From Bacteroidales bacterium (GTDB lineage Bacteria; Bacteroidota; Bacteroidia; Bacteroidales; UBA6680): a stretch of 37,140 bases of DNA. Below the pieces are notes generated by a model. The model made no database searches and had not been told where the DNA came from. It worked only from the letters and a program-made list of their open reading frames with translations. This document shows positions 20,434 through 33,108 of this stretch, in pieces. A program made the translations under genes and the position numbers. The stretch covers positions 1 to 37,140 of the forward strand of contig JAFGOQ010000058.1 of the NCBI GenBank assembly GCA_016926405.1, given 5' to 3'. Within the stretch, counting starts at the first letter, position 1; each line of letters starts with the position of its first letter.

Positions 20434-21171
20434 TTAGTTTTGCTCTGCTACTTCTGGAGTAACCTCGTCGGTTGCTTTACTTCTTAGGCTCATACGTATT
20501 TTTATATTGGCATCTTCAATAATACGGCTAACATCTTCGGCTAACGAAGCGTATGTTGATGGATTTACCTTTGCCATCGATTCTAAATAAAGTAAAAGGC
20601 TATTATTAAGTATATCCATAACAACTTTTTTCTGCTTGCTTGCCGACACAGTATTATCCATATCAACATGAAGCTTCGAAACTTCGCCTTGTATTACCTT
20701 AAACTCCTCGTTAGTGGTGTTTAATAGGTTTAATCTGTTAGAGACATCACTAAACTTGGCTAAATCGTCGGCATACTCTGTAGTTAACTTTTTATACATC
20801 GACGTTAACTCAGCAGTCTCCTCGTTGTACGACAAAATATTAATTTTCCCAAAACTATTAACAACGTTTAACAAACGCTGAGCACTTTCTCCTTCTAAAC
20901 TGGGGAAACAAGCGTAACCTCGGAGTAAATACTTAATACCTGTGTTATAAGCATCACGCTGCGAGTCTTTATTAGACTGTCGCTTTGTTACCTCGCTCTT
21001 ACTGCTATTACCTATCGAGGTGGTAAGAGTTCCATTACTTGTGTTAAGGGCAGACACAGTAGTTGTAAAATAACTATCGCTAATATCGCCTACCGACAAA
21101 CATTTTTTACAAACTAACTCGGCAGCATTATTTACTTGATTAGAGTTAGCTCTTGATATTAATTTTTCCAT
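20434..21171 (-). CDS. Hypothetical protein, DUF6261-like (divergent member)
   Basis: This 245-residue protein is soluble and mostly helical, with no signal peptide or membrane helix. The segment RDAYNTGIKYLLRGYACFPSLEGESAQRLLNVVNSFG followed by SYNEETAELTSMYKKL matches, from memory, the core of DUF6261, a Bacteroidota family of about 240 residues and unknown function. The N-terminal 60 residues are rich in Ser, Thr and Asn. It is the same length as the two closer paralogues at 30655 and 35991 but differs widely from them. The large hairpin array begins about 150 bp upstream of its start. Confidence 0.7.
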   Translation of the reverse strand: MEKLISRANSNQVNNAAELVCKKCLSVGDISDSYFTTTVSALNTSNGTLTTSIGNSSKSEVTKRQSNKDSQRDAYNTGIKYLLRGYACFPSLEGESAQRLLNVVNSFGKINILSYNEETAELTSMYKKLTTEYADDLAKFSDVSNRLNLLNTTNEEFKVIQGEVSKLHVDMDNTVSASKQKKVVMDILNNSLLLYLESMAKVNPSTYASLAEDVSRIIEDANIKIRMSLRSKATDEVTPEVAEQN

Positions 21172-24553: not shown

Positions 24554-25192
24554 TTAGTCCATTAATAAGGGTTCCAATTCAAGCGAGCTATCTAAATAAA
24601 CATCGGGTTTAAACTGCTGTAATTTATAATTTGTTTTAAATCGTTTTTGTAAAACTTCAATATCCTTATGTGTATGAAAACCTTTAACAACAGTAGTACG
24701 AAACTGATATCCAATATTTGCGCTTTCAATTAGTTTAATAGAATTCAATATCTGATTGAACATATTATTTGTTAAACAGTTTCCTACCACAACATTGTAA
24801 GCGTCAAAATCTAAAACCTGCTTAATATCCATTGCAACAAAGTCTATTAATTTATTGCTAAGCAAATATTCTAACATTATTGAATTAGTGCCATTTGTAT
24901 CGAGCTTTACTTTAAATCCCATATTTTTTATTTCAGAAATAAAATCGGGCAAATCGCTATGAATAGTAGGCTCACCACCCGATATACATACGGCATCGAG
25001 CAAGTTTTTATACTTGTTCAGATAGTCGAAAATTGTAGGTAAGCTATATACTGTTTCAAACTTTTCGGGTAAAACAAGATTTGGATTATGACAAAACCCA
25101 CATCTAAAATTACACCCCTGGGTAAAAACAATAGAGCTAATGTTTCCGGGAAAATCGATTAAACTTTGCTTAGTAAAGCCTGCTATTTTCAT
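24554..25192 (-). CDS. nrdG: Anaerobic ribonucleotide reductase activating enzyme
   Basis: This 212-residue radical SAM enzyme installs the glycyl radical on NrdD. The radical SAM cluster cysteines are C27, C31 and C34 (CNFRCGFC), and the SAM-binding GGE motif is SGGEPT. LDTNGT and MDIKQ are typical family landmarks. It lies downstream of nrdD across a 205-bp spacer with strong hairpins. Compared with the short E. coli NrdG this is the longer form common in Bacteroidota and Clostridia. Its function depends on anoxic conditions. Confidence 0.94.
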   Translation of the reverse strand: MKIAGFTKQSLIDFPGNISSIVFTQGCNFRCGFCHNPNLVLPEKFETVYSLPTIFDYLNKYKNLLDAVCISGGEPTIHSDLPDFISEIKNMGFKVKLDTNGTNSIMLEYLLSNKLIDFVAMDIKQVLDFDAYNVVVGNCLTNNMFNQILNSIKLIESANIGYQFRTTVVKGFHTHKDIEVLQKRFKTNYKLQQFKPDVYLDSSLELEPLLMD

Positions 25193-25275: not shown

Positions 25276-25326
25276 CTAAGGCGCAAAGGTTAACTTTTAA
25301 TTCCCCTTTGCGCATTATAGCCTTAG
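25276..25326. other. Nested hairpin in the nrdD-nrdG spacer
   Basis: GCGCAAAGG and CCTTTGCGC pair perfectly around a 15-base loop, and the flanking CTAAG and CTTAG extend the stem after an internal bulge. A second weaker hairpin (ATTATCA / TGATAAT, 25349-25378) lies closer to nrdD. Neither has a following T-run on the minus strand, so RNA processing or partial attenuation is more likely than full termination. Confidence 0.6.
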
Positions 25327-25397: not shown

Positions 25398-27551
25398 TCA
25401 ATCGGCTAACTCCAGAACCTCTTCGGGTTGATTAACAATTGCTTTATCGAATAATTTACGATCGTAAAACTCACTCTGCTTTCCATCGTTCCACTGATCG
25501 ACAGGTCGCAAATAGCCAACAATGCGCGAATATACTTCGCATTTATTTACTTTACCTTCGGCACTACATTTTGGACACTCTTTATGCTCACCATAAATAT
25601 ATCCGTGCTCTGGACAAACACTAAATGTAGGTGTTAACGAAAAATAGGGAAGTTTAAAATTCTCGCAAACCATCTTTGTAAATCGTTTTACCGACTCGGC
25701 AGGCAGTTGACTCTCGCCAACAAAAACATGGAAGACTGTGCCTCCAGTATATTTTGTCTGAAGATTATCTTGCAGCTCAAGAGCCTCGAAAATATCTTCG
25801 GTAAAACCAACAGGCAACTGACTTGAATTAGTATAATATGGAGCAGCATTTTCCTGACGAACTTGCTTTTCGTTTGCTACAATAATGTCGGGAAACTCGG
25901 CCTTATCAAGCTGTGCCAATCTATACGTTGTACCCTCGGCTGGTGTTGCCTCTAAATTGTAAATATGCCCCGTCTCGCTCTGAAACTCCTGAAGCTTTTC
26001 ACGCATAAACGACATAATATTTTCGGCAACTTTATTACCCTCTTTCGTTGTAATATCCTTTCCGTAGAAATTCAACAGAAGCTCATTCATCCCCACCAAT
26101 CCAATTGTCGAGAAATGGTTATCCCAATAGGCTCCGTTTTTCTGGCGTATATTTCGTAAATAGAATTTCGAATATGGATACAATCCGTTTTCGGTAAGCT
26201 GTTCAATAACCTTACGCTTAATTTCCAAACTATCTTTGGCAAGAGTCATAAGCTTATCTATTCGTTGATAAAGCTCTTCTTCGGTTTTTGACTCAAATGC
26301 TAAACGAGGTAAATTAAGCGTTACAACACCCACCGATCCGGTAAGCGGATTAGCGCCAAACAGTCCTCCCCCACGCGATTTCAGCTCGCTAGTATCAATT
26401 CGTAAACGACAACACATTGAGCGAACATCGTCGGGCGACATATCGGAATTTACAAAGTTTGAGAAGTAAGGAATACCATATTTAGCTGTCATCTCCCAAA
26501 TAGGTTGACGGTTTTCGTTGTCCCAGTCGAAGTCTTTGGTAATATTATATGTAGGAATAGGAAACGAGAATATTCGTCCATTAGAATCGCCTTCGGTCAT
26601 TACATCGGCAAAAGCACGATTAAACAAATCCATTTCGGGTTGAAAATCACCATAGGTATGTTCAGTAATCTCGCCACCAATAATAACCGAAAGATCTTTC
26701 ATATTATTAGGCACAACTAAATCGAGAGTGATATTTGTAAACGGAGTTTGGAAACCTACTCGTGTAGGAATATTCATATTAAACATAAACTCCTGAAGAG
26801 CTTGCTTAACCTCAACATAAGAAAGATTATCGTGTCGGATAAATGGAGCTAGATAAGTATCGAAATTAGAGAAAGCCTGAGCACCTGCTGCCTCACCCTG
26901 CATAGTATAAAAGAAGTTTACAATTTGCCCCAACAGAGTTCTAAAATGCTTTGCTGGTTTACTCTCTATCTTACCTGGCACTCCTTTAAAACCGGTCATT
27001 ATAAGCTCTTGCAAATCCCATCCTACGCAATACACACTAATAAACCCTAGGTCGTGGATATGCAATTTACCCTGCTTGTGAGCATTTCCTATCTCCGAAG
27101 GGTAAATCTTATTAAGCCAATACTGAGCACTTATAATTGTAGATATGTGCTGATTCATACCCTGCAATGAATAGGTTGAGTTAGCGCTCTCTTTAATACG
27201 CCAATCGTTATTGTTTATGTAATCGTCAACAATATCGATATTCGAAAACAGCTCCTTAACATTTCTAATTCCATCGTGCTGCTTACGATAAATAATGTAT
27301 GCCTTAGCAACATCAAAATGTTTTTGCTCGAAAAGCTCCAGCTCAACTAAATCTTGAATCTCTTCAACACTAGGAGTGTTAGTTTTTAGTTTCGATATTA
27401 CACTCTGCATAATAGCCTCTGCAAGCTCGCGGTTAGGATTACCTGTGGCTCTGAGGGCTTTAAATACTGCAAAAGTAATTTTGTCCGATTCAAAAGGGAC
27501 TACACGCCCATCACGTTTTTGTACAGTTTTAATAGCACCATTAATTTTCAT
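25398..27551 (-). CDS. nrdD: Anaerobic (class III) ribonucleoside-triphosphate reductase
   Basis: This 717-residue glycyl-radical enzyme makes deoxyribonucleotides without oxygen. It opens with an ATP-cone allosteric domain (VQKRDGRVVPFESDKITFAV). The barrel has the landmarks SGGGLFGANPLTGS and FSVCPEHG. The C-terminal zinc site uses CPEHG, CPKC and a further Cys. The radical glycine is G679 in RIVGYLRPV, followed by WNDGKQSEF. Length and order are standard. The start is the ATG at 27551. Transcription comes from beyond a cobalamin riboswitch at 27657-27811, which should lower expression when B12 is plentiful. nrdG follows on the same strand. Confidence 0.97.
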   Translation of the reverse strand: MKINGAIKTVQKRDGRVVPFESDKITFAVFKALRATGNPNRELAEAIMQSVISKLKTNTPSVEEIQDLVELELFEQKHFDVAKAYIIYRKQHDGIRNVKELFSNIDIVDDYINNNDWRIKESANSTYSLQGMNQHISTIISAQYWLNKIYPSEIGNAHKQGKLHIHDLGFISVYCVGWDLQELIMTGFKGVPGKIESKPAKHFRTLLGQIVNFFYTMQGEAAGAQAFSNFDTYLAPFIRHDNLSYVEVKQALQEFMFNMNIPTRVGFQTPFTNITLDLVVPNNMKDLSVIIGGEITEHTYGDFQPEMDLFNRAFADVMTEGDSNGRIFSFPIPTYNITKDFDWDNENRQPIWEMTAKYGIPYFSNFVNSDMSPDDVRSMCCRLRIDTSELKSRGGGLFGANPLTGSVGVVTLNLPRLAFESKTEEELYQRIDKLMTLAKDSLEIKRKVIEQLTENGLYPYSKFYLRNIRQKNGAYWDNHFSTIGLVGMNELLLNFYGKDITTKEGNKVAENIMSFMREKLQEFQSETGHIYNLEATPAEGTTYRLAQLDKAEFPDIIVANEKQVRQENAAPYYTNSSQLPVGFTEDIFEALELQDNLQTKYTGGTVFHVFVGESQLPAESVKRFTKMVCENFKLPYFSLTPTFSVCPEHGYIYGEHKECPKCSAEGKVNKCEVYSRIVGYLRPVDQWNDGKQSEFYDRKLFDKAIVNQPEEVLELAD

Positions 27552-27656
27552 GATAATTGTTTTTAAAAAATTAAATAATCAATGGTAGCGGTGGATGAAA
27601 AATAAGAAAGATAAGATACCTTTTCTCTGCTCTTCTCCCGAAAGCTACGAGTAATT

Positions 27657-27811
27657 CAAAAGTTGACAGGTCTTCCGGCTTGTTACGCTTTGATTTGCCT
27701 TCCCATCGAATAAGATATCGACAGTGACTTTTATTAACCAAAACTATTTATGCAACTTACGGCTGCGGGGACAGCTACCGATTCAAACGGTATTCCCTTG
27801 TTCAATTTTTG
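27657..27811 (-). promoter_or_regulatory. Cobalamin (B12) riboswitch upstream of nrdD
   Basis: Read on the minus strand the aptamer has the conserved blocks in order: GGGAATACCG, GAATCGGTAGCTGTCCCCGC, then GCCGTAAG, CACTG, GGGAAGGC, and the B12 box AAGCCGGAAGACCTGTC (27665-27681). The closing P1 stem pairs CAAAAATTG (27803-27811) with CAACTTTTG (27657-27665). Between it and the nrdD ATG are 105 bases with a small hairpin CTCG...CGGGAG (near 27635-27651), positioned like the kissing-loop partner P13. No T-rich terminator is evident, so control of translation initiation is more likely than termination. Confidence 0.93.
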
Positions 27812-28170
27812 TTAGAGTAAATATATCTACACTTAATAAATAAGCTAAAAAATAACTGACTTTGTTATTAACAATGAATTAACATTTTCAAGAGAAACAG
27901 ATATACACAACTGGTTATCAATCCATAAAACAACACCAAAAGAAGAGATATTAAGGGTAAAAAGAAAATAAAAGTTACTGATGCACTTTCTCCCTATATA
28001 AACTAAACACTACTCTAATCTCTAAATCAAAATTCTTTAGTATCACCCATTACAACTTTATGTTATTAAGTTAATAAACCAGTATTTTACTAAATCGCTA
28101 ATATAATTTTAACACCGAGCATATATTCTAAAAAAAAACTATATTTGCGCAAATTTAAAACGCTTTAATA
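27812..28170. other. Intergenic region with divergent promoters (nrdD leader and polyamine operon)
   Basis: This 359-bp AT-rich spacer has no open frame of interest. It must hold the minus-strand promoter for the riboswitch transcript and the plus-strand promoter for the carboxynorspermidine genes. The only motif I can point to is the -7-like box at 28140. Confidence 0.5.
28140..28147 (+). promoter_or_regulatory. Candidate -7 box for the carboxynorspermidine operon
   Basis: TATATTTG is an exact match to TAnnTTTG and lies 23 bp before the ATG at 28171. This is close enough for a short leader. A matching TTTG at -33 is not obvious. Confidence 0.42.
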
Positions 28171-29364
28171 ATGAGTAGAGTATTGATTATCGGTGCAGGA
28201 GGAGTTGGAACAGTTGTTGCAACCAAAATGGCGTCTCTTCCTGAGGTTTTTACCGACATTATGCTAGCTAGTCGCACAAAGAGTAAGTGCGATGCTATTG
28301 CTGAGAGAATTGGTGGAAACCGAATCCAAACAGCTCAGGTTGATGCTGACAATGTGCCTGAACTTGTTAATCTTATTAACAGCTTCAAGCCCGAACTAGT
28401 TGTTAACGTTGCTCTTCCATATCAGGATTTAACTATTATGGATGCTTGTCTTGAGACTAAAGTTAGTTACCTAGACACAGCTAACTACGAGCCACTTGAC
28501 GAAGCTAAGTACGAGTATAAATGGCAATGGGCATACCGCGAGAAGTTTGAAAAAGCCGGTATTACAGCTATCCTTGGTTGTGGTTTCGACCCAGGTGTTA
28601 CTAGCATTTTCACTGCTCACGCAGCTAAACATGTTTTCGACGAGATTCATTATCTAGATATAGTTGACTGTAACGGTGGTGACCACGGTAAAGCTTTTGC
28701 TACCAACTTTAACCCAGAAATTAATATCCGCGAGATTACCCAAAAAGGTAAATATTGGGAGAATGGACAATGGGTTGAAACAGAGCCACACGAAATTCAC
28801 AAGCCTCTTAACTACCCAGAAATTGGTCCTAAAGAGTCGTACCTTATTTATCACGAGGAGCTTGAGTCGTTGGTTATTAACTACCCAACAATTAAGCGTG
28901 CACGTTTCTGGATGACTTTTGGTCAAGAGTACCTTACTCACCTTCGTGTTATCCAAAACATTGGTATGGCAAGCATTGAGCCTATTAACTACGAAGGCAA
29001 AGAGATTGTTCCTATTCAGTTTCTTAAGGCTGTTTTACCAGCTCCTGAGACTCTTGGTGACAATTACACTGGCGAAACATCTATTGGATGTCGTATTAAG
29101 GGTATCAAAGATGGACAAGAGAAGACATACTATATTTACAACAACTGCTCGCACCAAGCTGCCTTTAACGAAACAGGTACTCAGGGTGTAAGCTACACTA
29201 CTGGTGTTCCTGCTACTATTGGAGCTATGATGTTCCTTCAAGGACAATGGAAAAAACCAGGTGTTTATAATGTAGAAGAATTTAATCCAGATCCATTTAT
29301 GGAACAACTTAACATACTTGGTTTACCTTGGGTTGAGGTTCATGAAGCGGATTTAGAATTGTAA
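28171..29364 (+). CDS. Carboxynorspermidine synthase (saccharopine dehydrogenase family)
   Basis: This 397-residue NADPH-dependent enzyme condenses aspartate semialdehyde with a diamine to carboxy(nor)spermidine, in the alternative bacterial polyamine route. The Rossmann fold opens the protein (VLIIGAGGVGTVVATKMA), followed by the saccharopine dehydrogenase landmarks YLDTANYEP, GCGFDPGVTSIFTAH and GVPATIGAMMF. The following gene, the matching decarboxylase, settles the pathway over lysine synthesis. Codons lean to CTT, GTT and GCT more than in neighbours, which suggests high expression. A hairpin lies in the 84-bp gap before the decarboxylase gene. Confidence 0.94.
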   Translation: MSRVLIIGAGGVGTVVATKMASLPEVFTDIMLASRTKSKCDAIAERIGGNRIQTAQVDADNVPELVNLINSFKPELVVNVALPYQDLTIMDACLETKVSYLDTANYEPLDEAKYEYKWQWAYREKFEKAGITAILGCGFDPGVTSIFTAHAAKHVFDEIHYLDIVDCNGGDHGKAFATNFNPEINIREITQKGKYWENGQWVETEPHEIHKPLNYPEIGPKESYLIYHEELESLVINYPTIKRARFWMTFGQEYLTHLRVIQNIGMASIEPINYEGKEIVPIQFLKAVLPAPETLGDNYTGETSIGCRIKGIKDGQEKTYYIYNNCSHQAAFNETGTQGVSYTTGVPATIGAMMFLQGQWKKPGVYNVEEFNPDPFMEQLNILGLPWVEVHEADLEL

Positions 29365-30654: not shown

Positions 30655-31392
30655 CTAGTTTCTTTGTCCTAAGGTGATAGCGGTGCTTTTAGACTTCCCT
30701 TCCTGCGAAAGTGCAATTAAATTATATTCATTTGTTACTGCATTAATTCTTGAAGCAATATCAAGCAGACCTCGGTTTCCATTAAACTTATAAAAAAGAT
30801 CAATTGAGCTAAACAATATATGGCAACATTGACGCACCTCCTTATAAATTTCTAGCCTATCGGAATTCTCATTATCGGGTTCTATAGTTATACGCGTAGC
30901 ATCTATAGTTATAAAATCGGTGTTAATGTAACACATATCTTTATACAAATCGTACAAGTTTAGAGCTTCTATACAATTCTTATTATCTGCGCTGTCGAGT
31001 TCGGCTATTAAGTTATTCATAACAGCTGTTTGCAATTTATTACCTTTTAAATGCATGCTCCAGCCATGTTTAATAATTACCAATTCTAAAGCACGAGCTT
31101 TGTCGGCTATATTAGGATTAACACTATATGTATTTGCTTTTACCGAATCGCGAAATGCAATAAAACTATTATCTCTTAACTTTTCTAGCTCATTAAAACT
31201 CTCGGTAAACTCGTTACCACTATTTTCTTGACTTGCATTAAGGGCTGTATGAAAAACCGATATAAAAGAATCGGAAAATTGTTTAATCTGAAGAGCTTCG
31301 GTATTACAAACCTCTATTAACTGGACAATTCTAGAATAATAATCCATCTCTTGATCAGTACGTAGCTGATTATCGTTTATTCTATTCATCAT
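30655..31392 (-). CDS. Hypothetical protein, DUF6261-like paralogue A
   Basis: This 245-residue soluble, helical protein has no signal or membrane segment. It matches the gene at 35991 along its whole length: QLRTDxExxYYxR near the N-terminus, IKQFSDSFISV, LEKLRDNSFIAFRDSVKANTYS, HGWSMHLKGNK and IYKEVRQC. The central RDN...V.AN pattern fits the DUF6261 family as I remember it. Function is unknown. The start is Met-Met (31392 or 31389). A block TGAATTAATAAACCTAAA just upstream is shared with the other close paralogue. It stands alone on the minus strand between plus-strand genes. Confidence 0.75.
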   Translation of the reverse strand: MMNRINDNQLRTDQEMDYYSRIVQLIEVCNTEALQIKQFSDSFISVFHTALNASQENSGNEFTESFNELEKLRDNSFIAFRDSVKANTYSVNPNIADKARALELVIIKHGWSMHLKGNKLQTAVMNNLIAELDSADNKNCIEALNLYDLYKDMCYINTDFITIDATRITIEPDNENSDRLEIYKEVRQCCHILFSSIDLFYKFNGNRGLLDIASRINAVTNEYNLIALSQEGKSKSTAITLGQRN

Positions 31393-31842: not shown

Positions 31843-33108
31843 ATGAGTAGTAATATCATTAAGAATTCGAGAAACACCGATAAAGCGCCAATTAGTGCTC
31901 TATCGACGCAGACGGTAGCTTTTTCTCACTACAACAACTTCTCGGCTCAGTTGCCAATCGATCCAAAATCGGGTAAAATTGTCGATGGTGGCGTAAAAGA
32001 GCAGGCAGAGCAATGTCTAAAAAACATTAAAGCAATTGTAGAGAGTATCGATCATACAATGTCGGATGTTGTTAAAATTACGGTATTCCTAAAGAACATA
32101 ATGGACTTTGATGCTGTAAACGAGGTTTATGCAACATTCTTCCAAAACTATCTTCCTACACGTACAACACTCGCTGTTGAGGCTTTACCTATGGAAGGTG
32201 CATTGGTACAAATTGAAGCACTTATATCAAACGGCGAGGGTACATACCCACAGGCGCCTTGCGACTTAGTGAAACTTGTTAAAAACACAGATAACGCACC
32301 AAAAAGTGCTATATCTACACAATCTGTAGCTTTCTCGCACTACAATCACATTTCGGCACAATTACCTATCGATCCTAAAACAGGAAATATTGTAGTTGGT
32401 GGTGCAAAAGAGCAGGCTGCACAATGTCTTAAGAACATTAAGGGAATTATGGAAGGTATCGACGTTCCTTTCGACGATATTGTTAAAGTTAACATCCACG
32501 TTACAAATCTTTCGGATGTTGATGCTGTTAACGAAGCATACACAACATTCTTCCCAGACTCTTCTATTGCCAGAACATTAGGATATGTTCCAGCACGCTC
32601 GGTAGTGGTAGCGTCTGGATTACCTATGCATGCATTAGTGCAAATTGATGCTACTGTATCGCACGGCGATGGTACTCCTCCTCAAGCTGTTGAAGATAGA
32701 CATGGTTTAGTTATCAGACCAAACAACACTGATAATGCACCTATTAGTGCTCTATCGACACAAACTGTAGCTTTTTCGCATTACAACAATATTTCAGGTC
32801 AGTTACCTGTTGACCCAAAAACTGATGAAATTGTTGCTGGTGGCGTTAAAGAGCAGGCCGAACAATGTCTAAAAAACATTAAAGCAATTGTAGAGAGCAT
32901 AAACCACGTTATGGACGATGCTGTTAAAATAAATATCCAACTTAAAAATATTGCAGATATTGATGCCGTAAACGAAGTTTACAAAACATTCTTCAATAGC
33001 GATCTTCCTGCAAGAACAGTAATTGGTGTTTCGGATATAGCAATGAATGCATTGGTACAAATTGATGCTATTCTTTCTAACTGCGAAGGCACACCTCCTT
33101 CTAAATAA
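31843..33108 (+). CDS. Protein of three tandem RidA-like domains
   Basis: RidA/YjgF proteins are normally single domains of about 130 residues that form trimers and hydrolyse reactive enamines and imines. Here three copies are fused: about 11-135, 148-280 and 295-418. Each has TQ-(T/S)-VAFSHYN, S-(A/G)-QLP-(I/V)-DPK, EQA-x-QCLKNIK, DAVNE and ALVQI. The arginine at the place of the catalytic Arg is kept in all three (R107, R252, R391). The acidic residue after it is E125 in the first and D269 and D408 in the others. Domain 2 has a short insert (SIARTLGYVPARS). Domains 1 and 3 are nearest to each other, also at DNA level. The N-terminal tyrosine of typical RidA is absent, so specificity may differ. 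Confidence 0.92.
   Translation: MSSNIIKNSRNTDKAPISALSTQTVAFSHYNNFSAQLPIDPKSGKIVDGGVKEQAEQCLKNIKAIVESIDHTMSDVVKITVFLKNIMDFDAVNEVYATFFQNYLPTRTTLAVEALPMEGALVQIEALISNGEGTYPQAPCDLVKLVKNTDNAPKSAISTQSVAFSHYNHISAQLPIDPKTGNIVVGGAKEQAAQCLKNIKGIMEGIDVPFDDIVKVNIHVTNLSDVDAVNEAYTTFFPDSSIARTLGYVPARSVVVASGLPMHALVQIDATVSHGDGTPPQAVEDRHGLVIRPNNTDNAPISALSTQTVAFSHYNNISGQLPVDPKTDEIVAGGVKEQAEQCLKNIKAIVESINHVMDDAVKINIQLKNIADIDAVNEVYKTFFNSDLPARTVIGVSDIAMNALVQIDAILSNCEGTPPSK

Follow-up and report, generated by a model that had tools for sequence, protein, structure and literature searches.

A cobalamin riboswitch upstream of the anaerobic ribonucleotide reductase gene nrdD in a Bacteroidales genome, and a candidate expression platform

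The riboswitch and the genes around it

Why should a cobalamin (B12) riboswitch precede a gene for a ribonucleotide reductase that does not depend on B12? The question is posed by a contig of a Bacteroidales bacterium (JAFGOQ010000058.1; the stretch of 37,140 nucleotides that was analysed is called the window below), on the minus strand of which the initial annotation had placed a B12 aptamer in front of nrdD. The features first needed are these:

27648-27845, minus strand: complete cobalamin (B12) riboswitch aptamer (RF00174)
27781-27787, minus strand: L5 loop, UUUGAAU, which from its place in the Rfam alignment would be the partner of L13 in a ligand-dependent kissing loop
25398-27551, minus strand: nrdD, anaerobic (class III) ribonucleoside-triphosphate reductase, 717 aa (PRK08270, TIGR02487, PF13597, PF03477)
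24554-25192, minus strand: nrdG (NrdG2), radical-SAM activating protein for NrdD (TIGR02495)

The covariance-model scan (cmscan, Rfam) confirmed the aptamer as a complete Cobalamin riboswitch, its score of 87.9 bits (E 1.4e-20) exceeding the gathering score of 31.5, and the match spans positions 1-189 of the model with neither end truncated. The span first assigned to the element, 27552-27811, includes the expression platform, i.e. the gap of approximately 96-97 nt from the aptamer to the nrdD ATG (27551), but starts 34 nt into the aptamer, so that the 5' arm of P1 and some of the stem after it are missing. From the riboswitch class, the ligand sensed by the nrdD leader is presumably B12 or another cobamide.

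The identity of the next gene as that of a B12-independent reductase also held: the predicted protein scores 1091 bits with PRK08270 and 582 bits with TIGR02487, both above cut-off, and its domain matches are an NRDD domain and an N-terminal ATP cone. Downstream lies nrdG (TIGR02495, 191.5 bits, cut-off 131). The gene on the other side of the riboswitch (28171-29364, plus strand; best match to the carboxynorspermidine pathway) is divergent, so the element can serve nrdD only.

Several other observations concern this region. Between nrdD and nrdG (25281-25313, minus strand), reading by eye showed an inverted repeat, GCGCAAAGG / CCTTTGCGC, whose 9-bp stem is perfect and encloses a loop of 15 nt; no T run was seen after it. 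Just 5' of the aptamer (27847-27874, minus strand), TTG is followed after 17 nt by TATTTTTT, which may be a promoter of the Bacteroidetes type; on the minus strand of the leader, a sigma-70 scan detected no match that rose above chance. The nrdD region is flanked by two 245-aa DUF6261 proteins (20434-21171 and 30655-31392, both minus strand), and a 421-aa protein (31843-33108, plus strand) has three Rid (L-PSP) domain matches in a single chain.

Ribonucleotide reductases and B12 riboswitches of the genome

The initial annotation reasoned that turning down NrdD in the presence of B12 would make sense if the genome also encoded the B12-dependent class II enzyme, NrdJ. The genome (2.9 Mb in 233 contigs, 92% complete) does possess nrdJ: its 856-aa product is the only large-subunit reductase found by PF02867, and scores 569 bits with TIGR02504 (NrdJ_Z; cut-off 399.95). 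There is no riboswitch at the nrdJ locus. The small subunit of a class I reductase was not found in the genome, an absence that at 92% completeness is not proof.

RF00174 has seven matches in the genome, that of the nrdD leader included. The other six are:

L005: before genes for precorrin-8X methylmutase (cbiC) and cbiD
L007: before genes for a CbiX-like chelatase and cbiM
L002 and L006: before genes for TonB receptors, of which the best matches are to BtuB models, under cut-off
L003: before a gene for a secreted-looking protein without a family match
L001, 1501-1685: no clear gene within the next 500 nt

The B12 uptake genes that had been suggested as a check are thus present, together with genes for B12 synthesis and cobalt uptake, under sister riboswitches. 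In L001, P13 is followed by a short hairpin and by nine consecutive T.

Association of the riboswitch with nrdJ

The DNA upstream of nrdD was scanned with Rfam in 89 nrdD-bearing genomes of the order, in two samples. A riboswitch on the strand of nrdD precedes the gene in 49 of 73 genomes that possess nrdJ and in 2 of 16 that do not (Fisher p 1.2e-4); when counted by genus cells, which handles kinship to genus level only, the association has p 7e-4. The first sample alone gives p 0.10 and the second 4e-4. The remaining 24 of the 73 genomes with nrdJ have no riboswitch before nrdD. The two genomes with a riboswitch and no nrdJ (G075 and G030) are drafts, 94% and 96% complete, and congeners of theirs (G099 and G101) possess nrdJ, so that they count less as exceptions to the rule. 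In a single genus, G155 possesses both nrdJ and the riboswitch and G079 lacks both. A riboswitch is present at 19 of 20 nrdD loci that were selected from the genome records of strains in culture or with a name. This co-occurrence across the order, judged from genome sequences, lends independent support to the isozyme logic. Two B12 riboswitches are found near nrdD in L073 of G188 (divergent, 518-723 on the minus strand and 868-1081 on the plus strand) and in L150 of Chlorobium phaeovibrioides (tandem, 1-165 and 538-777).

The association bears on the direction of the response. That the element instead activates nrdD in the presence of B12, or is a decayed riboswitch devoid of function, is very improbable: co-occurrence with nrdJ fits repression, the aptamer is complete, conservation extends to the P13 motif, and in most relatives such an element stands at a similar distance from nrdD. 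Activation by a corrinoid riboswitch of a novel kind has been described (PMC10653944), but B12 switching on a B12-independent isozyme has no evident use.

Expression platform

Between the aptamer and nrdD, and extending into the coding sequence, the following elements were delimited:

27629-27645, minus strand: P13 hairpin, GCUUU / AGAGC with loop CGGGAGA, a conserved motif
27637-27647, minus strand: segment A, 5' arm and loop of P13, UAGCUUUCGGG, complementary to B
27576-27594, minus strand: segment B (anti-P13 / anti-start), CCACCGCUACCAUUGAUUA, able to pair with A or with C
27535-27546, minus strand: segment C, AAUUAAUGGUGC, within codons 2-6 of nrdD, 12 bp with B

The P13 hairpin, with the motif GCUUUCGGG, lies directly 3' of the aptamer in the window. 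The motif CUU(U/C)CG(G/C) follows all seven aptamers of the genome (7/7), and 64 of 80 relatives have GCUU(U/C)CGG ahead of nrdD. A B12-box regular expression failed to recognise almost all of the leaders and was left unused. By inspection only, in the window, L5 and the UUCGGG of P13/L13 could form six pairs, of which three would be G-U.

Segment B, 25-43 nt 5' of the nrdD start codon, can pair with either of two partners. Complementarity of A and B has a mean z of -1.93 against dinucleotide shuffles in 65 leaders (64 relatives and the window), and that of B and C a mean z of -3.19 over 54 leaders (p<0.05 in 81%), with -0.42 for control segments of the same leaders; these z-scores are not blind, the tests of A, B and C having been designed after the same leaders had been viewed. 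In the window leader alone, A:B pairing is not significant, and B:C, in which 27589-27577 of B pairs with codons 2-6 (27546-27535) over 12 bp, has z -3.83. Over the leader set, B is thus a segment with two possible partners, the start region and a competing arm, and B:C pairing is frequent among leaders whose nrdD is of the window's family.

Two further tests were run later as checks on B:C, both in 28 non-redundant leaders. Leaders matched with their own coding sequences have -10.8 kcal/mol versus -7.7 kcal/mol for swapped pairs, a value reached by none of 20000 permutations, and the pairing is stronger than with synonymous recodings of the nrdD start (Stouffer z -5.0); the window, taken singly, does not reach significance in the synonymous-codon test (p 0.32).

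B:C could not be generalised beyond the nrdD family of the window, either to the second family or to the genome's other riboswitches. In the second family the pairing is mostly absent (p<0.05 in 2 of 17 leaders, one of which, L095, has a start of the window type), and none of the four other riboswitches of the genome that were tested gave a significant result, so the platform is not general. In L006, the AUG is folded into a hairpin of another kind.

Proposed mechanism of control

The explanation that we consider probable from these comparisons is a B12-repressed (OFF) riboswitch that would lower NrdD when cobamide is plentiful and NrdJ can work, by occlusion of the start region. In the absence of B12, segment A would pair with segment B during transcription, leaving the nrdD start region open. 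With B12 bound, an L5-L13 kissing loop would keep P13 closed and segment B would be freed to pair with the first nrdD codons, blocking ribosome binding with no need of a Shine-Dalgarno site. We infer the direction of the response, the kissing of L5 with L13 and the translational level of control; direction and level are drawn from the riboswitch class and from Bacteroides thetaiotaomicron, in which B12 represses the mRNA of one riboswitch-controlled gene (PMC8941943).

That same effect on mRNA also speaks for the main competing explanation, repression by B12 through transcription termination, either by Rho or at an A/U-rich hairpin with AUUUUU behind it that is situated between P13 and segment B (about 27630-27600). 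B12 riboswitches are transcriptionally active in 10 of 15 Gram-negative taxa (PMC12121620), which also favours termination. A terminator scan of the minus strand of the leader found none, although the scan requires at least three G-C pairs and may miss A/U-rich terminators; the stem is indeed A/U-rich, the T run after it is missing in many relatives, and termination leaves the covariation of B with C unexplained. On balance, termination in place of start occlusion appears unlikely.

The two forced states of the window leader are 1.9 kcal/mol apart, and its unconstrained minimum free energy (MFE) fold already contains B:C without ligand. Therefore, a switch must be kinetic or aptamer-dependent, and A:B would have to be favoured first by the succession in which A, B and C are transcribed. 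The same fold might be taken to mean that B:C is a constitutive hairpin of the start region, standing outside the switch, but this seems a poor explanation of why the P13 arm is a second partner of B in most leaders, why pairing of this kind is not seen with control segments from those leaders, and why matched B:C pairs are stronger than swapped ones; we regard it as improbable. For occlusion by a full three-strand platform, in which one segment pairs with either the P13 arm or the first codons, B12 controls translation without a Shine-Dalgarno site, and the coding sequence evolves to keep the pairing, the chances appear to be even.

Comparison with known systems

The group to which the window belongs is generally held to rely little on Shine-Dalgarno sites. 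The locus offers a testable proposal for riboswitch control of translation in such a group, as well as a quantified association, within one order, of a riboswitch before nrdD mostly where nrdJ exists. A limited search of open-access papers found no description of the A/B/C expression platform.

The arrangement of riboswitch and nrdD and the isozyme logic are already known from publications on other phyla, contrary to the hint in the initial annotation that a class III target might be novel. In Desulfovibrio vulgaris and Desulfuromonas, whose genomes also contain nrdJ, B12 elements in front of nrdDG were described in 2004 and explained by the same isozyme logic (Rodionov et al., PMC545781, with reference to Rodionov et al. 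2003). The comparison with the window, which takes in RNA class, target genes, presence of nrdJ in the genome and isozyme logic, shows likeness in all four; the phylum is another. In Ca. Chlorobium antarcticum, nrdD is among the targets of cobalamin riboswitches, and control in Chlorobi is called mainly translational (PMC8620254; 2021). The position of a cobalamin riboswitch upstream of nrdD is shared with the window, whereas the GCUU(U/C)CGG motif of P13 was not found in the Chlorobium-type nrdD loci examined.

Two further systems share the logic and differ in the target. The B12 riboswitch of Streptomyces nrdABS (Borovok et al. 2006, via PMC4991794 and PMC5962746) likewise lets B12 turn off a B12-independent reductase where NrdJ is present as well, but its target is of class Ia and its control is transcriptional. 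The Cbl riboswitch of metE, opposite MetH (PMC9600662), is similar in repressing a B12-independent isozyme where a dependent one exists and in its L5-L13 kissing loop, but metE encodes a methionine synthase, not a reductase.
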